Shown here piece by piece: positions 51,063-60,079 of a stretch of DNA of 64,000 nucleotides (its first letter is position 1; each line of letters begins with the position of its first letter). Source of the DNA: Bosea sp. RAC05 (GTDB lineage: Bacteria; Pseudomonadota; Alphaproteobacteria; Rhizobiales; Beijerinckiaceae); the NCBI RefSeq assembly GCF_001713455.1, contig NZ_CP016464.1, forward strand, positions 124,001-188,000, in the 5' to 3' direction. A program made the translations under genes and the position numbers. The notes under the pieces are model-generated. The model saw only the letters and a list, made by a program, of their open reading frames with translations. It was not told where the DNA came from and made no database searches.

Positions 51063-52219
51063 CAGCGCGCGGCCTTCGCGACATCGGTGACGGGGCGCAC
51101 CCGGCTGCCGGGGATGGCGTTCTGCATCAGGCCGACGACGACGCGGTCGCCCGCCGAGAGCCCGGCGCGGATGACCCTCAGACCGCCCTCGCTCGCCTCG
51201 CCGATTTCGACCGGACGCTGCTCGACCCGGTCCTGCCCGTTGACCACCAGCACATAGCGCCCGGTCTGGCTGGCACCGAGCGCCGCCTCCGGCACGAGCA
51301 GGGACGGCACGTCCTTCTGCAGCGGCAGCCGCACCCTGACATAGAGCCCCGGCAGCAGCACGCCCTTGGGGTTCGGCACGGAGGCCCGGACCGCCAGCGT
51401 GCCGCTGCCCATGTCGAGTTCGGGCGCGACATAGTCGAGCTGGCCGAGATGCGGATAGCCGGCATCGGTGTCGAGCCCGATCTCGACCGGAATGCTGCCG
51501 AGCCCGGCCAGCGTCAGGCCGCGCTGGCGCATCGCCTCGCGAATCCGCAGCACGGTCTGCTCATCGAGCGAGAAGCGCACCTTGATCGGGTCGCTCTGGA
51601 CGATCGAGGCCAGCAGCGTCGGCCCGCCGACGCCGACCAGCGCTCCCTGGTCGACGAGATGGGCCGAGACGATGCCGTCGAAGGGTGCCTTGACCTCCGT
51701 ATAGGCGAGGTTGAGCTGCGCCTGCGCCACCTGGGCGGCCGCCTGCTCGCGCGCGGCGGCGGTCGAATCGCGCCGGCTGAGCGCACTGTCGAGCGCGGCC
51801 TCCGAGGCGGCCTGGCGCTGGGCGAGCTGCTTCTGGCGGGCGAGATCAGCCTCGGCCTGGACCAGCAGCGCCTTTTGCTGGGCCTCGGCAGCCTCGGCCA
51901 GTTGCAGGTTCAGCCGGTAATTGTCCGGCTCGATCACGAAGAGCACGTCGCCCTGCTTCGCGGCGGCGCCGTCGCTGTAGCGAATCTCGCTCAGCGTGCC
52001 CGAGACCCGCGCCACGAGGTCGACCCGCTTCGCCGCTGCCGTCTGGCCCGTGAGCTCAAGATAGCGCGTCACCGGCCGCGACACCGGCGGCGCCACGCGA
52101 ACCTCGGCCGGGGGCGGCGCGGAGGCGGCCGGCTTGTCGTTGCAGGCGGCCAGCGTGGCGGCGAGGCCGAGCAGCACGGGCACAGCCGTCAGCCGTGAGG
52201 AGACGAGCGAGGCGATCAT
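51062..52219 (-). CDS. RND efflux periplasmic adaptor lipoprotein
   Basis: A 385-residue membrane fusion protein. The lipobox LAAC places the lipidated Cys at residue 26. The lipoyl half-motif VDLVARVSGTLSEIRYSDGA, a coiled-coil hairpin (about 105-165) and APFDGIVSAHLVDQGALV are classic. It connects the RND pump to an outer-membrane channel; no channel (TolC/OprM) gene is in this operon. It overlaps the preceding hydrolase gene by 4 nt and the permease by 1 nt. Confidence 0.95.
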   Translation of the reverse strand: MIASLVSSRLTAVPVLLGLAATLAACNDKPAASAPPPAEVRVAPPVSRPVTRYLELTGQTAAAKRVDLVARVSGTLSEIRYSDGAAAKQGDVLFVIEPDNYRLNLQLAEAAEAQQKALLVQAEADLARQKQLAQRQAASEAALDSALSRRDSTAAAREQAAAQVAQAQLNLAYTEVKAPFDGIVSAHLVDQGALVGVGGPTLLASIVQSDPIKVRFSLDEQTVLRIREAMRQRGLTLAGLGSIPVEIGLDTDAGYPHLGQLDYVAPELDMGSGTLAVRASVPNPKGVLLPGLYVRVRLPLQKDVPSLLVPEAALGASQTGRYVLVVNGQDRVEQRPVEIGEASEGGLRVIRAGLSAGDRVVVGLMQNAIPGSRVRPVTDVAKAAR

Positions 52220-53349
52220 CGTGATCCTCCCAGGGGTGGGCCGGGAATGAGGGCGTCGCCCAGCAGCGTCACGGAGCGGCCGAAGGTCTCGATGCGCTCG
52301 TTCAGGGACGATCTCTCCTGCCGGGCAGACCCCGCACCCTGGGAGATCGCCCGCCCGATCGCGGCAATGGTCGTGCCGTCCCCGAAGGCCTTGTTGTGGT
52401 TGCGGCCGAGGCCGCCGGCGACCTGCGACAGATCATGCGCCTCGATGCCGAGCGCGCGGAACTGGCTGAGATCGGTGTTGGCGCCCGCCCGGATCTTGCC
52501 GCCGAACAGCCGCCGCGACAGGTCGAGCGCATAGTCGTCGCGCGACGCGTAGAGCACGATGCGGGCGGTCAGCGGCCGCAGCCGCGCGATCTGGGTGCGG
52601 AACACGTCCATGTCGATGTCGGGCGCCGCCAGCACGATCGTGCCGAGACGCCCCAGCGTCTTCTGGTCGCCCGCGATCGAGAGCTGCCGCAGCGTCTCCA
52701 TCGTCAGCCAGTTGCCCATCGAATGGGCGAAGATGTCGATGCCCTCGATCCCCGGGTCGCGCGCCAGCCGCGCCAGCAGATCGGCCATCGCGTCCCGGCT
52801 GAAATTGGCGGAGTCCTTGTCGTAGCCGTAATCCCTGACCTCGCCCCGCGAGGGCCAGCTGAACAGGATCGGCAGGCCGCCATAGCCGGTGTCGTCGACG
52901 ATCTGGGCGAGGCGCACGACCGCCTCGTCGAATTGCGTGTTGTAGCCATGGGTGAAGACCAGCGCCCGGCGCCGCGTCTTCAGCTCGGCCCGGGCAAGCC
53001 CGGCGAACTGGGTCGCGTCGAGCTCGCGCGCTTCGACGAGCGCGATATGCTTGTCGGGGTCGGGACTGTCCGCATCGGTCGGAACCGAACCCGGCGCTCG
53101 TCCTTTCGGCAGCGACAGGGTGAGGCTGGCATAGCGCGCCGCGTCGCCGCGCTCGCCCGAGAAGAGATGGCCCGGCGGATCGAGAGCCGGGCCCCGCGTC
53201 GTCACCGCCAGCACGGTGCGGGTCTTCGCCTCGGCCGGCGGCTTCGCCACCGGCACCAGCAGCCCGCGGCCGGGGCCGGCGCAGCCGCCCGCCGCCAGCG
53301 CCAGCCACGCGGCTCCCATCAGGGCGATCCGGCCCAGCCCGCTTCGCAT
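52216..53349 (-). CDS. Alpha/beta hydrolase lipoprotein (DUF900 type)
   Basis: A 377-residue protein with a lipoprotein signal (LALAAGGCAG, Cys at about 23). The hydrolase core shows VFTHGYNTQFDEAVVRLAQI, PILFSWPSRG, the Ser nucleophile in IFAHSMGNWLTMETLRQL and TIVLAAPDIDMDVF. Members of this group (DUF900) are esterase-like and lie in the envelope. GGGGGA about 6 nt before ATG 53349 supports the start; an upstream extension is not protein-like. It overlaps the efflux adaptor by 4 nt, an unusual partner for an RND pump. Confidence 0.85.
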   Translation of the reverse strand: MRSGLGRIALMGAAWLALAAGGCAGPGRGLLVPVAKPPAEAKTRTVLAVTTRGPALDPPGHLFSGERGDAARYASLTLSLPKGRAPGSVPTDADSPDPDKHIALVEARELDATQFAGLARAELKTRRRALVFTHGYNTQFDEAVVRLAQIVDDTGYGGLPILFSWPSRGEVRDYGYDKDSANFSRDAMADLLARLARDPGIEGIDIFAHSMGNWLTMETLRQLSIAGDQKTLGRLGTIVLAAPDIDMDVFRTQIARLRPLTARIVLYASRDDYALDLSRRLFGGKIRAGANTDLSQFRALGIEAHDLSQVAGGLGRNHNKAFGDGTTIAAIGRAISQGAGSARQERSSLNERIETFGRSVTLLGDALIPGPPLGGSR

Positions 53350-53405: not shown

Positions 53406-53633
53406 TCAGCCGCCGCGCGCCTCGACGACCTTGCGGCAGTCGCTTGAGAGCTTCGCCTTGTTGTCCTTCAGGCAGGCGTTCATCGGCTGCGGCTGGCCGA
53501 TGAAGGAGGCACAGAGTTTCTGCGCGTCCGGGCGGCAGGCCATCTGTTCGGCGCGCGTCGGGCCCGACTGGGCACCGGCGAAGGAGGTGCCCGCGACCAG
53601 GAGGGCGCAGGCGAGCAACAGCGATGTCTTCAT
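53406..53633 (-). CDS. Small secreted cysteine-rich repeat protein
   Basis: A 75-residue precursor. The signal peptide (KTSLLLACALLVAGTSFAGA) is followed by a mature part of about 53 residues with four Cys: MACRPDAQKLCASF, NACLKDNKAKLSSDCRKVVE. The spacing matches the Cys-rich GLG1-like repeats in small exported bacterial proteins. AGAGGA about 7 nt before ATG 53633 supports the start. The gene lies 56 nt upstream of the hydrolase-adaptor-pump genes without a T-tract terminator between, so it may lead that operon. A CCATGTTCATGG dyad lies about 90 nt upstream. Confidence 0.8.
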   Translation of the reverse strand: MKTSLLLACALLVAGTSFAGAQSGPTRAEQMACRPDAQKLCASFIGQPQPMNACLKDNKAKLSSDCRKVVEARGG

Positions 53634-53722
53634 GGGTCGATCCTCTCGGATGGCAGTCGCCCCCGCGGTCGCACGACCGGAGAGCCCACGGACCATGGCG
53701 CGATGCGCCTCCCCCGCCCATG

Positions 53723-53754
53723 CCATGTTCATGGGGAGCGCTTTCATGGGGAGC
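53723..53754 (-). promoter_or_regulatory. Dyad site A (CCATGTTCATGG) plus tandem TTCATGGGGAGC repeat
   Basis: CCATGTTCATGG (53723-53734, give or take one base) is an inverted repeat. TTCATGGGGAGC occurs twice, at 53728-53739 and 53743-53754, with a 15-nt period. It lies between the mscS stop (53757) and the Cys-rich gene start (53633), about 90 nt upstream of the latter. The same dyad recurs at 55735 and 58820. Confidence 0.7.
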
Positions 53755-53756
53755 CC

Positions 53757-55649
53757 TCACGCGGCGGCCTGGGGCAGGGCGTCCACCACGGGCACGGCAC
53801 TCGAGAGGGCGTCCGTGGCGACGGTCACGCTGCGGCGGATACCGGGAATGGCGAGTTCGTCGATCGCCTCCTCGACCAGTCGCTGGATCAGCGCCCGGCC
53901 GCGCTCGGCGCTCGCGGCACCGATGTTGAAGGCCAACACCAGCGAGGCGCTCTCGCCCTCCGCGGGCTCGTTGAGCTTCGCCGCGATGTCGCCGACGATC
54001 GCCTGGCGGATTGGCGGCTCGCTGCGCAGGGCAGCGGCGGCCTGGCGCGTGAACAGCATGATGTCGTTGCGGTCCGGCGCGCGGTCGAGCGCCACGGTGA
54101 CGCTCAGGCGCACCAGCTTGCGGCTGTGATTGGTGACCGCCCCGAGTTCGCCGAGTGGGATGGTGTGAAGCCGACCGTCTTCCTCGCGCAGGCGGATGCT
54201 GCGCAGGTTGATCTCTTCGACGAGGCCGCGTCGGGTGCCGACCTCGACCGACTCGCCGATCCGGAAGACGTCGTCGACGATGTGGAACACCCCTGAGACG
54301 ATGTCCTTGACCAGGGCCTGCGAGCCGAAGCTGATCGCCAGGCCGACGATTCCGGCACCGGCCATCAGCGGGGTGATGTCGACGCCGAGCGCCGAGAGTC
54401 CGACCAGCGAGAACACCACGCAGATCAGCGTGATCGTGGTCGCGCGCAGGATCGGCAACACCGTCGAGAGCCGGGCCAGGCGCGCATCCCGCTCCTGCGC
54501 CGTGCCGGCGGCTTCCGTCGGCGTCAGCGCCGCCTCGGTCCAGACATGCACGAGGGCGGCGCAGGCGGCTCCCAGCACGAAAACGATCGAGGCGAAGTTC
54601 AGCCGATAGCCGAGCATCTGTGCGCCATCGGCCGGGAGCCAGCCGAAGGCCCCGACCAGCCAGAATTCGAGGCCGATCCGCAGGATCATCACCGCCGCGA
54701 GGCTGTCGATGACCACGCGCAGCACGAAGAGCTGCCGCATCTCGGCCGGCTGGCGCGAATCGCGGATGCTGACGGCCACCGCCCGGTCGAGCGCGAGCGC
54801 CAGCAGCAGCACCACGATCGTCCCCACGGCGCCGTGATAGAGCGCGAAGGCGCCACTCACCCAGCCCCAGAGCCAGAAGACGAGGGCCAGCCCGCTGAGC
54901 CCGATCGCCAGCAGCCTCGCCCCCGCAGCCATGCCGTGGCGCCCCAGCGACACGAACATCTGGACCGCGCCCGCCGTCAGCGCGGCGGCGACGAGGCCGG
55001 AGATCAGCTTGGCGGCCTCGTCGCTCAGGCCCGACCGCTGCGCCGAGGCGAGCAGGACCGCATGCAGATGAGCGATCGCGAACAGGATGGCGAAACGGCG
55101 CACCGCCTTGCGCGCGCCCGCATCATCGACCCGCGTCAGCCGGAAGCGCTTCATCGCCGGCTGGAAGAGGATGATCAGCAGCGTCAGCCCCATCAGCCAG
55201 CGCACCAGCGCGATCACCATGTCGCGCGGCAGCGCCTCGGAGCCCGGCAGGATGCCGAGACCCCGCACCAGCAGCACCCGTCCGGCCAGCGCCGCCGCCA
55301 ACAGCGCGAGGATTTCGAGGCCGGCGAGACCTGCCATCCCGGCGAGCGCGCTTCGGGCCGAACCGGCCCGGAGGCGGGCCTGCGCCAGCCCGCTGCGCGT
55401 CGCGACATAGGCCAGCGCGACGACGAGGCAGACACCGAGCGTCACCGGCAGCGTCGTCGCCGACTCGGGCCAGCCGCGCTCGGCCACCGTCATCAGTTCG
55501 CCCGGCAGGCCGGGCAGGGCCGTCAGGGCCGTGACGACTTCGCGGTCGACGGTCTCGACGAGGCGCCGCATCGCATCGAGCGGCGCGATGCCGCTGCGGA
55601 GGGTTTCCGCCGCCGCCGCGGCGGCAGGCATGGCTGTTTCGCCCGGCAT
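53757..55649 (-). CDS. Mechanosensitive ion channel, MscS family
   Basis: About 630 residues. A large N-terminal membrane region with around nine segments precedes the MscS core. The pore-lining helix is in LMAGAGIVGLAISFGSQALVKD, followed by IVSGVFHIVDDVFRIGESVEVG and the cytoplasmic beta and alpha/beta domains. It releases solutes on hypo-osmotic shock and belongs to the long MscM/YbdG-like members. I chose ATG 55649 because GAGGA lies 5 nt upstream and because dyad site B would otherwise fall across the first codons of the longer form (ATG 55745). It is upstream of the Cys-rich gene on the same strand. Confidence 0.9.
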   Translation of the reverse strand: MPGETAMPAAAAAAETLRSGIAPLDAMRRLVETVDREVVTALTALPGLPGELMTVAERGWPESATTLPVTLGVCLVVALAYVATRSGLAQARLRAGSARSALAGMAGLAGLEILALLAAALAGRVLLVRGLGILPGSEALPRDMVIALVRWLMGLTLLIILFQPAMKRFRLTRVDDAGARKAVRRFAILFAIAHLHAVLLASAQRSGLSDEAAKLISGLVAAALTAGAVQMFVSLGRHGMAAGARLLAIGLSGLALVFWLWGWVSGAFALYHGAVGTIVVLLLALALDRAVAVSIRDSRQPAEMRQLFVLRVVIDSLAAVMILRIGLEFWLVGAFGWLPADGAQMLGYRLNFASIVFVLGAACAALVHVWTEAALTPTEAAGTAQERDARLARLSTVLPILRATTITLICVVFSLVGLSALGVDITPLMAGAGIVGLAISFGSQALVKDIVSGVFHIVDDVFRIGESVEVGTRRGLVEEINLRSIRLREEDGRLHTIPLGELGAVTNHSRKLVRLSVTVALDRAPDRNDIMLFTRQAAAALRSEPPIRQAIVGDIAAKLNEPAEGESASLVLAFNIGAASAERGRALIQRLVEEAIDELAIPGIRRSVTVATDALSSAVPVVDALPQAAA

Positions 55650-55734
55650 GATGTCCTCGCTCCGGCTCGCCGCATCTGCCAGTTCCGATACGTCAGGCCA
55701 TCGCATCACGCCATCGCGGGCGGGGTCCCGCCAC

Positions 55735-55748
55735 CCCATCTTCATGGG
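55735..55748. promoter_or_regulatory. Dyad site B (CCCATCTTCATGGG)
   Basis: CCCAT and ATGGG form perfect 5-nt arms around CTTC. It lies 85 nt upstream of the mscS start chosen here (55649, reverse) and 98 nt upstream of the forward gene at 55847, so it could serve both divergent promoters. It matches sites A and C at all but one base of the shared core. Confidence 0.7.
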
Positions 55749-55846
55749 ATACCGGCGGCGCGCAAAGAGCCCCAGATTGCAGCGACGTCGCGAAAGCGTG
55801 GCCGTCCGGCCAGGCCGCAGACGCGCAATGCAGGGAGCACCAGACG

Positions 55847-56140
55847 ATGGTTCGCATTCCAGGGTTCACGCGCAACGGCCTCGGCCTGGCTGCGCTTTCC
55901 GCGCTGGCGGGCCTGACGCTGGGCGCCGCACCGGCCGAGGCGGTGGTCTATTGCAAGACGGTGGGCGTGCCGAAGGGCTGCATCGTCCGCCCGGCCCCGG
56001 TCGTGGTCGGCGCGCCGGTCGCACGAGCGGCGGTGGCGACACCCTATCGCGGGGTCGGAGCCGGCGCGCGCGGCGTCGGCGTGCGTCCCGGCACGCCGGC
56101 CAATCGCGGCGGCCCGGTCAACCGCGTCGGCCGCCGCTGA
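55847..56140 (+). CDS. Small secreted protein, Val/Ala/Arg/Gly-rich
   Basis: A 97-residue precursor. The signal peptide (about 1-32, GLAALSALAGLTLGAAPAEA) is followed by VVYCKTVGVPKGCIVRPAPV with two Cys that may pair, then a Gly/Arg/Pro-rich basic tail ending GPVNRVGRR. Small proteins with a VVYC...GC(V/I)(V/A)R core are common in Hyphomicrobiales and have no assigned function that I know. GGGAG about 9 nt before ATG 55847 fits. It converges with the histidine kinase gene 7 nt away and shares dyad site B with mscS. Confidence 0.7.
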   Translation: MVRIPGFTRNGLGLAALSALAGLTLGAAPAEAVVYCKTVGVPKGCIVRPAPVVVGAPVARAAVATPYRGVGAGARGVGVRPGTPANRGGPVNRVGRR

Positions 56141-56147
56141 ACGCGGC

Positions 56148-58067
56148 TCAACGGCCGGGCGCGTCGAGATCGGCGAAGCGGCCCGGAAGGTCGAGCGTCA
56201 CGCGCGTCCCCTCCGGGCCCGAGACGATCGCCAGTTGCGCGCCGCAGCCTTCGGCGCGCCGGCGCATGTTGGCGAGGCCCCGCCCGGCCAAAGGCGGGGC
56301 GGCGCTGCCGGGCTGGGCGTCGAAGCCCCGGCCATCGTCCCGCACGCTGATGCGGCCGCGTTGACCGTCCGCCGCCGCGACGGTCTCGATGTCGACCATG
56401 ATCGTGCCGGCACCGGCATGCTTGACCGCATTGGTCACCGCCTCGTCGAGCAGACGCAGCATCTGGATGACGTGGCCCGGACGCAGTTCGGGATGGACGG
56501 GCAGCCCCTGCGGCGTCAGCACGCGCCACGCCAGCTCGATGCGATGCGCCCGCAACTGGGCCGCGGTCCGCTCCCGCCAGGCCCCGAGCGCCAGCATCAG
56601 ATCCCCGCCGATATCGTCCATGGCGTCGACCACCAGCCGCAGATCCTTCAGCGCGGCCCGCGCCGCCTCGCCGATCGGCGCGGCCTGCTGGCGTTCGCTC
56701 AGCGCGACGATGCTGACGAGCTGGCCGCCGAGCCCGTCATGCAGGTCGCGCATCAGCCGCGTCCGCTCGCCGGCCAGAGCCATCGCCCACGCCCGCTCCT
56801 CGTCCCGCGCCAGGGTCGCACGCAGCTTGTCCTCCGCTTCGCGCACGAGCGTGACCATCCGGCCGGCGAAGCTGTCGACCTGGTTCATGGCACGGGCAAA
56901 GCGCCAGGTCAGACCGATGCCGATCGCGATCACCATGGCCGAGTAGGACAGGCGCGAGAAGAACATCCGCCGGTCGGGCGCGATGTCGAGGATCGACAGG
57001 ATGTCGCGCGCGAAGAAGAACAGCACGACCGTGACCGCGCTGCCGAGCATGAGGCTGGTCGCATCCCGGCGTTGCAGGAAGGCAAGCGCGACCACGACGG
57101 CGATCAGGACCAGGCAGCACGCCACCGTCGCCGGACCGAGCATCAGATAGGCCGTGCGAACCGGGCCGGGGCCGCCGAACAGCCCTGTCGCGGTGATGAT
57201 CAGGCCGGGTACGAAGAGCAGCACGGCGATCCGTCGCAGCTTCATCCCGAGGAACAGGACGAAGAACAGCACCCCGAAAGCGCTCTCCAGCGGCGGCGAG
57301 GCGATCAGCACCGCGTTGAGCCCGGCATAGAGCGACTGGCCGCTCGGCGCCGAGATGAAGGTCTGCATCACGCCGATCGCCATCGAGGCGGCGAGCGCGC
57401 CATATTCCGGCTCGTGGCGTCGCATCAGCCACATCATGCCCAGGATGACCGCGAGGATGCTCTGCCAGGCGGCCAGCACAATCGGCAGCGTCACGAAGAG
57501 CAGGACGCGCTGGTCATGGGCCGGCCGCAGCATGGCGTCCGGACCGACATGGATGCGGTCGAGAAAGCCGGTGAGCGGCCCCCAGACGAAGAGCCTGACC
57601 GTCAGCTCGTTGCGCCCCTCCCGCAGCAGGGAGGACGGAACCACCACGATCTCGGGAGTGCTTCGGTCGGGCCGGTTCGCCGCCGGATTGCGGCGGCTGT
57701 CGAGAATCTCGACGCCGTTGACCGCGACCGCGACACCGTTGGTGAAGCGCGGCAGCAGCACCGACCAGGGCTCCTCCGGCAGGCCGGCAGGCCTGTCGAA
57801 GGCCAGCCCATAGCGGGGCGGAGCCGCCATCGTGAACCGGGCGCTGTGGTGATGCGGCAGGCTGACCATCACGCCCGGCGGCTCCAGCCACGCCTCGGTG
57901 AGCTGCCAGCGCGGCGGGGGCTCCGGCGTCGGCAGGGCCGCGAGCCCGAGACAGCCGACCACGACGAGCGCCTGCAGCGCGAGATAAAGCAGCAGCCGCA
58001 GCGCCAGCCCGGGGGTGCCAAGAGGCGCCACCGGGCGTGATTCCGGCTCGGCCGCCGCCGTGCTCAC
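56148..58067 (-). CDS. Membrane histidine kinase, 7TM-DISM-like with HisKA_3 domain
   Basis: A 639-residue sensor. One membrane segment (about 22-45) is followed by an extracytoplasmic beta domain (about 50-185), then seven segments (about 187-395), the arrangement of 7TM diverse-signalling receptors. The HisKA_3 dimerisation domain has the phospho-accepting His at about 443 (RLMRDLHDGLGGQLVSIVAL). The ATPase has DEAVTNAVKHAGA and VRDDGRGFD and ends in LANMRRRAEGCGAQL. It overlaps the response regulator by 4 nt and is cotranscribed after it. The signal is unknown. Confidence 0.92.
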   Translation of the reverse strand: MSTAAAEPESRPVAPLGTPGLALRLLLYLALQALVVVGCLGLAALPTPEPPPRWQLTEAWLEPPGVMVSLPHHHSARFTMAAPPRYGLAFDRPAGLPEEPWSVLLPRFTNGVAVAVNGVEILDSRRNPAANRPDRSTPEIVVVPSSLLREGRNELTVRLFVWGPLTGFLDRIHVGPDAMLRPAHDQRVLLFVTLPIVLAAWQSILAVILGMMWLMRRHEPEYGALAASMAIGVMQTFISAPSGQSLYAGLNAVLIASPPLESAFGVLFFVLFLGMKLRRIAVLLFVPGLIITATGLFGGPGPVRTAYLMLGPATVACCLVLIAVVVALAFLQRRDATSLMLGSAVTVVLFFFARDILSILDIAPDRRMFFSRLSYSAMVIAIGIGLTWRFARAMNQVDSFAGRMVTLVREAEDKLRATLARDEERAWAMALAGERTRLMRDLHDGLGGQLVSIVALSERQQAAPIGEAARAALKDLRLVVDAMDDIGGDLMLALGAWRERTAAQLRAHRIELAWRVLTPQGLPVHPELRPGHVIQMLRLLDEAVTNAVKHAGAGTIMVDIETVAAADGQRGRISVRDDGRGFDAQPGSAAPPLAGRGLANMRRRAEGCGAQLAIVSGPEGTRVTLDLPGRFADLDAPGR

Positions 58068-58714
58068 AGCCGGATCAGGCCCTGCTGCAGCGCCTCGAAC
58101 ACCGCTTCGCCGCGCGTGTTGACCTCGAGCTTGCGGTAGATGTTCTTGATGTGGCCGGGCACCGTCTGCCGCGACAGGCCGAGATGCCCGGCGATGTCGG
58201 CATAGCTGAAGCCCTTGGCGATGCCCCAGAGGATGTCGATCTCGCGAGGCGTCAGCCGCGCCGTGTTGAGCCCCTGCGGGGCCGGGGCCGCGGCGGGCTG
58301 CACCTGCGTGCGCCGCACGATGAAGCGCGCGATCGAGGCCGAGATCGGCGAATGGCCGGCGACGAGGTCGCGCACCGTCGCCGCGATGTCGGTCGGGAAG
58401 GCGTCCTTGAGGAGATAGCCGGTCGCACCCTGGCGGATCGCGGCGATGACGCTCTCCTCATCGCCGAGGATCGAGATCACCATGATCTCCGTCTCGGGAT
58501 GGCGATGGCGCGTCTCCCGGATCAGGTCGAGGCCATGGCCGTCGGGGAGTTGCAGATCGGTCAGCAGCACACGGGGCACCGCCTCGCAGAGATGGGTCCG
58601 GGCCTCAGTGACGGTCGCAACAGCGGTGACGGCGAACTCTCCGGTCGCCCCCAGCGCGTCCTGGAGGCGCCAGCGCGTCGGCGCGTCATCCTCGACGAGC
58701 AGCACCTTGATCAT
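58064..58714 (-). CDS. LuxR/NarL-family response regulator
   Basis: A 216-residue protein. The receiver domain (1-120) has acidic pocket EDD at 8-10, phospho-Asp53 in LLTDLQLPDG, and the conserved Lys in GYLLKDAF. The C-terminal helix-turn-helix (about 150-212) has LTPREIDILWGIAKGFSYAD and LSRQTVPGHIKNIYRKLEV. AAGG about 7 nt before ATG 58714 supports the start. It is the likely DNA-binding partner of the downstream kinase, and dyad site C lies 105 nt upstream of its own start. Confidence 0.94.
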   Translation of the reverse strand: MIKVLLVEDDAPTRWRLQDALGATGEFAVTAVATVTEARTHLCEAVPRVLLTDLQLPDGHGLDLIRETRHRHPETEIMVISILGDEESVIAAIRQGATGYLLKDAFPTDIAATVRDLVAGHSPISASIARFIVRRTQVQPAAAPAPQGLNTARLTPREIDILWGIAKGFSYADIAGHLGLSRQTVPGHIKNIYRKLEVNTRGEAVFEALQQGLIRL

Positions 58715-58819
58715 GCGCCGCCTTGCTCCCCCGCCCCGGCTCGCAGGCCGCCGACCCGCGCCCTGGCCCGCCCCCGTCAGGGCTGTCGCATGCTAGCCGC
58801 TGTCGGCCGGCGGCGACAG

Positions 58820-58833
58820 CCCATGTTCATGGG
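58820..58833. promoter_or_regulatory. Dyad site C (CCCATGTTCATGGG)
   Basis: CCCAT and ATGGG form perfect arms around GTTC. It lies in the 277-nt gap between the AraC gene end (58992) and the response regulator start (58714), 105 nt upstream of the latter. I see no gene in this gap. The position suggests autoregulation of the two-component pair. Confidence 0.7.
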
Positions 58834-58991: not shown

Positions 58992-60002
58992 TCAAGCGGC
59001 TTTTCGCCAAAGCCCAGGCGATGTTCCGCTCCACCGACGAAAAGCGTGCACGAAGGAACTCGGGGTCGAATAGTCGAGCGTCGCAGCAATGTCCGCGATG
59101 CTCAGATCGCCCAACCTGAGCAGTTCCCTCGCTGCGACCTGACGCACCTCGTCCCTGATCGCGTCGAACGTGGTTCCCTCCGCTCGCAGCCGTCGCCTCA
59201 TGGCGCGCGGGTGCAAGCCAAGCCGCTCGGCCATCTCCGCCATCCTTGCATGGCCCCTCAGCAGGAAGGGGCGCAAGAGATGCCGGACATGCGCGGACAA
59301 GGGGAGCGGTGTCCCATGGCGGACCGAGAGAAGCTGGGCCAGCGCGAGATCATGCTGCGCCCTGTCGGCTGCCGGGAGCGGGAAATCCAGGACCGACGCC
59401 CGCAGGATCACACCCGTCTGGTGCTGGCCAAAGCGAACCGGGCATCGCGCCAGGCGCATGTAGCGGGTTGGATCGCGAGGGGCCGCCCTGGACATCACGA
59501 TTTCCTCTGGCGCAACCTGCCCGCCGGTCAGCTCGGCAATCAGATTGCAACCAACAGCAAGGACCAGATCATAGATCTGGTTCGTGATCGGTGCCGACGT
59601 GTCGTAAACGCCGTACCCCAATATGACGTCGCGGTCCGCCTGCATGATGTAGACCGAGCCGCCCGTCGAGTTGTGGCTCTGGAAGGCGGCAAAATCGCCG
59701 ATCGCCTCGCCCAGCGTAGCGGCATGGCGCAGGACGCGACCCAGCGGGCCAAGCGCAGCGAGTGTCTGGCGCTTCCCAAGCAGGATCCCGATGTCGTCCC
59801 GGCCGGTCAGGCGACATGCGTTGTCGAGGACCGACAGAAAGTCTGCATAAGCCACGAAGGCATCCGGCCGAACCTCAGCGGCCGAAATACCCGTGCCCTC
59901 CAGCACGGACGCCAGGCTGACACCGTGGTCTTCCAGCACGCCTGCCAACGGGACCAGGGCGGCTGCGCGTTGCATCGCCATCTTCGTCGTTGTCGGCGGC
60001 AT
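58992..60002 (-). CDS. AraC-family regulator with arabinose-binding-like N-terminal domain
   Basis: A 336-residue protein. Residues about 10-190 resemble the ligand-binding domain of OruR/ArgR-like AraC regulators. The HTH_18 domain is at the end (MAERLGLHPRAMRRRLRAEG, LSIADIAATLDYSTPSSFVHAFRRWSG). ATG 60002 has GAGGA 5 nt upstream; ATG 60041 lacks a site. It is divergent from the DUF1254 gene 77 nt away, so it probably regulates that gene. By eye its codon use is less G+C-biased than the neighbours, which may mean acquisition together with the DUF1254 gene. Confidence 0.88.
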   Translation of the reverse strand: MPPTTTKMAMQRAAALVPLAGVLEDHGVSLASVLEGTGISAAEVRPDAFVAYADFLSVLDNACRLTGRDDIGILLGKRQTLAALGPLGRVLRHAATLGEAIGDFAAFQSHNSTGGSVYIMQADRDVILGYGVYDTSAPITNQIYDLVLAVGCNLIAELTGGQVAPEEIVMSRAAPRDPTRYMRLARCPVRFGQHQTGVILRASVLDFPLPAADRAQHDLALAQLLSVRHGTPLPLSAHVRHLLRPFLLRGHARMAEMAERLGLHPRAMRRRLRAEGTTFDAIRDEVRQVAARELLRLGDLSIADIAATLDYSTPSSFVHAFRRWSGTSPGLWRKAA

Positions 60003-60079
60003 CGGTGTCCTCAAACCACAACGACCTGCATGCGAGTCCATCTACGGTGCGATCAGGATTGAAGTCGAGGGACCTCATC

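Follow-up and report, generated by a model that had tools for sequence, protein, structure and literature searches.

A conserved inverted repeat as the candidate operator of a local NarL/FixJ-type two-component module in Bosea and related Alphaproteobacteria

Autoregulated two-component systems of the NarL type that command a local regulon are an already known kind. NarL itself recognizes the half-site TACYYMT, and the site of a class II activator is centred near -41.5, where it adjoins the -35 region and is accompanied by a -10 hexamer. A further regulator of the NarL/FixJ type is EupR of Chromohalobacter salexigens, which, by the title of the paper describing it, controls ectoine uptake (PMC2964678). 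Here we describe a module from Bosea sp. RAC05, in a 64,000-nucleotide window (NZ_CP016464.1, positions 124,001 to 188,000) that is referred to below as the window. The module consists of a response regulator (RR), a histidine kinase (HK) and two small proteins, SEC and CYS, and an inverted repeat with the consensus CCCATG-NN-CATGGG precedes RR-HK (site C), SEC (site B) and CYS (site A). These dyads are conserved together with the regulator, keep near-constant distances to the genes, share a spacing to a -10-like hexamer and are usually lost when RR is lost. With a probability that we put at about 0.8, the three dyads are binding sites of RR, which would switch on RR-HK, SEC and CYS.

An earlier, sequence-only reading of the window had reported three near-identical dyads at 85-105 nt from start codons. 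The dyads are indeed present: the window holds the exact 12-mer CCATSTTCATGG at three positions only, 53723, 55736 and 58821, 100 dinucleotide shuffles of the window give no exact match, and the measured distances are 86-106 nt. With up to two mismatches allowed, the window holds 25 matches, against a mean of 6.8 in shuffles. In their 14-bp forms the sites are 6-2-6 inverted repeats, with a single-base mismatch in one arm at site A and likewise at site B. Site B faces both ways, as it also lies 86 nt before the start of an MscS-type channel gene on the opposite strand. Mechanical in-frame extensions of the CYS and MscS genes reach or cross sites A and B; homologues of the two proteins align from the shorter starts. 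Around site A (53722-53760), a second CCCCATGAA is seen just upstream and a CATGG repeat directly after (CATGGCATGG), and these may be extra half-sites.

The named loci considered below are the best 80 of 417 confirmed RR relatives from a scan of named genomes, and comprise four Bosea, mostly Bradyrhizobium, and single Mesorhizobium, Camelimonas, Agrobacterium and other alphaproteobacterial records. A dyad matching in 10 or more of its 12 arm positions is found 20-260 nt before RR in 78 of the 80, a threshold also reached by 162 of 4,000 random stretches from the same loci, some of them by landing on real sites. At 9 or more of 12 matches within 95-180 nt, RR is preceded by a dyad in 80 of 81 sequences, the window included; the sole miss must be the Agrobacterium locus L115. 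Counterparts of the SEC dyad are present in 78/78 sequences (one locus cut by a contig end being excluded) and of the CYS dyad in 76/77, with L061 as the miss. Flanking sequence diverges while the dyad is retained, and the distances between dyads and genes are near-constant in Bosea, Bradyrhizobium and some related bacteria. Of the 76 loci that have both genes, 75 place site B at 93-126 nt from SEC and site A at 75-119 nt from CYS. From B to A, the start-to-start distance is 34-95 nt in 69 of these 75 loci; two loci have 221 and 616 nt, three Bosea loci have about 2 kb, and L060, with one site between SEC and CYS, has zero. An order-wide draw of 397 genomes contains an RR orthologue in 11, and the nine carriers outside Bosea all have the dyad 112-120 nt before RR; this draw is not independent of the named loci, since at least one genome (G250, locus L049) is common to both. 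A rearranged module is seen in L308 (G502:C1:8885000-8900000), with HK broken into two parts, about 6.7 kb from each other and on opposite strands, and all three dyads retained.

The dyads are also tied to a common promoter layout. In the window, the sole hexamer of the form NANNNT found 8-39 nt after the dyad lies at an offset of 24 nt towards RR, CYS and SEC alike. Shuffling the three stretches 100,000 times produced some common offset in 12 cases and one of exactly 24 in none. The same offset recurs in eight MscS-bearing relatives (RR 6/8, SEC 7/8, CYS 7/8). For RR, the hexamer in the wider set peaks at offsets of 23 and 24 nt, seen in 47 and 57 of 73 distinct segments with some segments counted at both; for CYS the peak is at 24-25 nt (27 and 46 of 74). 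The six bases at the -35 place differ among the three promoters while the dyad is constant, and no good -35 box is evident. Taking the hexamer as a -10 box (-12 to -7) would put the centre of the dyad near -43.5, which is the place of a class II activator; this position is predicted from the shared offset, and the layout would accordingly be that of a class II site.

Genomes that differ in the presence of the regulator provide a further comparison. RR (at least 84% identity) is found in 8 of 61 Bosea genomes, the next best match being at 41%, and all eight carry dyads before RR, SEC and CYS. Two other Bosea genomes, G016 and G074, contain an MscS-CYS pair (CYS 61 and 67% identical) with neither RR nor HK; the best match before their CYS genes is 8/12, that is, the CYS dyad is missing. 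The persistence of this pair (L226 in G016 and L225 in G074) suggests that MscS and CYS may work together independently of the regulator. Among 146 genomes drawn from Bradyrhizobium, the genus of G250, 99 contain RR, and a close CYS homologue (E ≤1e-15) accompanies RR in 97 of them and occurs in 3 of the 47 genomes that lack RR. Two of the three, G570 and G497, lack a dyad before CYS (7/12), and G497 still holds pieces of HK. Altogether, four of five genomes with CYS and no RR are devoid of the CYS dyad, and the fifth, G114, has dyads together with an apparently truncated SEC. For 21 SEC relatives that stand alone, including one in the genome of the window, the best match is 7 to 9 of 12. A second SEC-like gene (G000:C2:2190338-2190571, L200), 75% identical over the matched part, has no upstream dyad.

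Across the 5.62-Mb genome (two contigs), the genome-wide scan that had been suggested for the motif returns CCATSTTCATGG 11 times, at the three window sites and at eight others, all eight in probable coding frames as called by a simple heuristic gene caller. Seven of these frames have a high third-position GC content, and the eighth site is inside an open frame of 655 codons where the sequence is AT-rich. That frame (L007:3-1967, G000:C2 near 3.43 Mb), whose start we take to resemble a SIR2-type domain, may belong to an acquired island. The genome holds just two perfect copies of the 14-mer CCCATNNTCATGGG, both in the module of the window. The 12-mer CCATGAASATGG is present in 61/61 Bosea genomes at 2 to 11 copies each, whether RR is present or not. 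In eight Bradyrhizobium genomes there are 21 non-module sites, 17 in frames and 4 outside; CCATGATCATGG sites were left out of this count, although some RR sites use that spacer. A wide regulon is rejected on these counts (8/8 in Bosea and 17/21 in Bradyrhizobium being in coding frames), and the distribution of sites points to a regulon that is mostly local.

Some additional targets are suggested outside the module. Twenty sites picked among the matches listed include 12 in frames and 8 outside; the latter comprise four Camelimonas sites, a pair of similar sites within one genome (perhaps a repeated element), one site upstream of an L,D-transpeptidase-like gene and one that is unplaced. In three related Bradyrhizobium genomes (G089, G087 and G088), the 14-mer CCCATGAATATGGC is intergenic before the same gene (L252:1498, L253:1513 and L254:1516; 3/3 outside frames). 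This gene, presumably L,D-transpeptidase-like, may be a clade-specific target. The four Camelimonas dyads (G100; L241, L242, L244 and L245), one of them a perfect CCCATGAACATGGG, are outside coding frames according to the heuristic caller, and the regulon is perhaps larger there.

Table 1. Features of the module and its surroundings, in window coordinates
Feature	Position	Strand	Description
RR	58064..58714	-	Response regulator (NarL/FixJ type); receiver + LuxR/GerE helix-turn-helix (HTH); predicted dyad binder
HK	56148..58067	-	Histidine kinase; 4-base overlap with RR
SEC	55847..56140	+	97 aa; hydrophobic N-terminus; conserved YCKTVGVPKGC and NRGGPVNRVG
CYS	53406..53633	-	75-aa Cys-rich protein; hydrophobic N-terminus
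MscS-type channel	53757..55649	-	Module neighbour
DUF900 alpha/beta hydrolase	52216..53349	-	Downstream of CYS
AraC-type protein	58992-60041		Encoded adjacent to site C
Site A	53722..53735	-	Dyad before CYS, GCCATGTTCATGGG; read towards CYS, CCCATGAACATGGC; 89 nt before CYS start
Site B	55735..55748	+	Dyad before SEC, CCCATCTTCATGGG; 99 nt before SEC start
Site C	58820..58833	-	Dyad before RR-HK, CCCATGTTCATGGG; read towards RR, CCCATGAACATGGG; 106 nt before RR start
-10-like hexamer CATGGT	53692..53697	-	24 nt after site A; predicted CYS promoter
-10-like hexamer CAGATT	55773..55778	+	24 nt after site B; predicted SEC promoter
-10-like hexamer TAGCAT	58790..58795	-	24 nt after site C; predicted RR-HK promoter

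The proteins of the module (Table 1) were compared among the named loci. RR scores above the Pfam cut-offs for Response_reg (66.6 bits) and GerE (52.7 bits); its receiver contains the phospho-acceptor Asp, in the motif VLL[T/S]D..LPDG, in 80/80 orthologues, and the carboxy-terminal HTH reads SRQTVPGHIK[N/S]IYRKL in 64/80, with K instead of R in three other displayed sequences. HK lies beside RR in 80/80 loci (tblastn); it starts with a helix, followed by a sensor domain predicted to fold as a jelly roll, a 7TM-like region and a HisKA_3/HATPase_c core. HATPase_c is above its cut-off, HisKA_3 scores 23.4 bits against a cut-off of 24, and the motif RDLHDGLGGQL is found in 80/80 homologues. In Bradyrhizobium centrolobii (L105:8699-10299), HK aligns only at residues 21-499 and 596-636, and thus seems to lack part of the ATPase domain; the dyads are retained there. 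SEC, present in 78/80 loci, looks secreted, as predicted from its hydrophobic start alone, and belongs to a family with 2,330 relatives at E ≤0.001 and no Pfam match. CYS (76/80 loci) is likewise predicted to be secreted. It scores 18.5 bits against Cys_rich_FGFR (PF00839), below the cut-off of 22; its four-Cys pattern is found in 76/76 homologues, and precomputed annotation assigns PF00839 to some of them. The DUF900 hydrolase, which could be co-transcribed with CYS, is present in 3/80 loci and is not part of the core.

We propose that the jelly-roll domain of HK senses something outside the inner membrane and that HK then phosphorylates RR. A dimer of RR, bound to the dyad around position -43, would stand in for a good -35 box and recruit RNA polymerase by class II activation; the expected outcome is positive autoregulation of RR-HK and activation of SEC and CYS. 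Several observations weigh against this proposal. The co-conservation is partly inflated by linkage, since the sites lie near genes that travel with the regulator, and the sequences compared come mostly from one genus, Bradyrhizobium; linkage accounts least for the spacing result and for the genomes without RR. The offset of 24 nt is not kept before SEC in Bradyrhizobium, where 4 of 67 sequences have it and 30 of 67 have an offset of 28. Among genomes devoid of RR, G074 has a partial dyad of 10/12, CCCATGACGTTGGG, near the MscS start, possibly a remnant or a chance match, and G114 retains two dyads beside CYS. In 19 kb of G114, no RR, HK or SEC was found, SEC being recognisable by eye for about eight codons only; we read this genome as a recent deletion and an exception to the rule that dyads accompany RR. 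Finally, Agrobacterium L115 has no good dyad immediately before RR. At L115:7319-7720 (Agrobacterium sp. a22-2), a small EF-hand gene of secreted type has a dyad, ACCATGAACATGGC, about 120 nt upstream; the gene is itself directly upstream of RR-HK and is a possible extra target.

The same evidence bears on other explanations of the dyads. RR could bind them and repress, or act in both directions, since the sign of regulation is not readable from sequence and a dyad beside the -35 region would suit a repressor as well; a centre near -43.5, the want of a good -35 box and the variation at the -35 place around a constant dyad fit an activator better, and we regard repression as rather improbable. 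It is very unlikely that a different regulator, such as the AraC-type protein, binds the dyads: its gene adjoins site C in the window and in G031, but at E 1e-4 an AraC homologue occurs in 0/80 named loci, against the dyad in 78, and this candidate was dropped; a regulator encoded away from the module could conceivably bind instead. Repeats made of such short palindromes are known, and the dyads might be a mobile or structural repeat with no regulatory role. We find that scarcely credible, given that the other eight genomic copies are in probable coding frames and that the dyad is kept while its flanks diverge, at a near-constant distance from the genes, and is usually lost with RR.

A separate alternative enlarges the regulon to include MscS, with site B as the common operator of two divergent promoters. 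The position of site B before MscS and the presence of MscS within the module in 8/8 RR-bearing Bosea genomes, and in two genomes of other families, speak for it; against it, the hexamer at the common spacing is absent towards MscS in the window, where no NANNNT occurs 8-39 nt after site B in that direction, and in all eight MscS-bearing relatives (0/8 at offset 24, four at another offset). Most named loci, moreover, keep the module without MscS: a homologue is found in 5/80, and the copies in L045 and L054 are distant (33-34%), farther off and on the other strand. Shared control of MscS therefore appears unlikely, and the channel was dropped as a core member on account of the few named loci and the missing promoter spacing. 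MscS might be an insertion in Bosea, but it is also present in modules from two further families, which makes its loss in Bradyrhizobium as likely as an insertion in Bosea. MscS is probably a mere neighbour in Bosea that is not controlled through the same layout, although control through a different one is conceivable. The core of the sequence-only reading, a regulator with its own sites, autoregulation and a local regulon, finds good support in the comparison, as the dyad follows RR across genera and families, precedes the RR gene and marks a regulon that is mostly local; its extension to the channel does not.

Among the papers listed for the motif letters and for family words, no title or beginning of an abstract describes this system or its operator, and none of the eight papers containing the motif letters is, by its title, on bacterial gene regulation. 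If RR acts as proposed, the locus yields at once a regulator together with its likely operator and a brief list of targets; the operator would be a sharp reporter for finding the signal of the sensor, and the SEC family would gain its first regulatory context. A dyad spotted by eye in a single genome is, in addition, testable through distance-keeping and co-loss. A more speculative possibility, which we hold doubtful, is a closed alphaproteobacterial loop in which a kinase with a GH2-type jelly roll senses a glycan and, through one near-exclusive operator, drives nothing but its own production and that of two tiny secreted proteins, which in turn act on the kinase or on its ligand. If true, a single locus would constitute a complete surface-glycan sensor.

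As the fold search with the whole kinase showed only kinase cores among the first 50 matches listed, the sensor domain was folded alone, and a jelly-roll fold was predicted; a sequence search gave one weak solved match, to a carbohydrate esterase (E 0.059). In fold, the domain resembles the N-terminal jelly roll of GH2 beta-glucuronidases and beta-galactosidases. The catalytic domain of these enzymes is absent from HK, the identity is 11%, and a common fold is no proof of sugar binding. The predicted order of an extracytoplasmic beta domain, a 7TM-like region and a kinase resembles that of the 7TMR-DISM receptors. HK scores 16.5 bits against 7TMR-DISM_7TM (cut-off 29), and 5 of 21 homologues match it at E ≤0.01 (best 5.7e-5); for the beta domain, the 21 members give no DISM-family Pfam match at E 1. 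RR shares the combination of a receiver and a LuxR-type HTH with NarL, DevR, VraR, MadR and MctR, its best solved relatives being NarL (1a04) and DevR (3c3w). It falls far below the cut-offs of the NCBIfam equivalogs NarL, MctR and MadR, with a best score of 118/300 bits for MadR and scores of 105/250 and 102/300 for the other two, and the half-site CCCATG of its dyad is unlike that of NarL. EupR is similar to RR in being of the NarL/FixJ type and differs in its control of ectoine uptake (PMC2964678). The module is also like DesK-DesR in joining a membrane-linked HisKA_3 kinase to a NarL-type regulator; in contrast to DesK, HK has an additional jelly-roll sensor domain, and the targets of the two systems differ.

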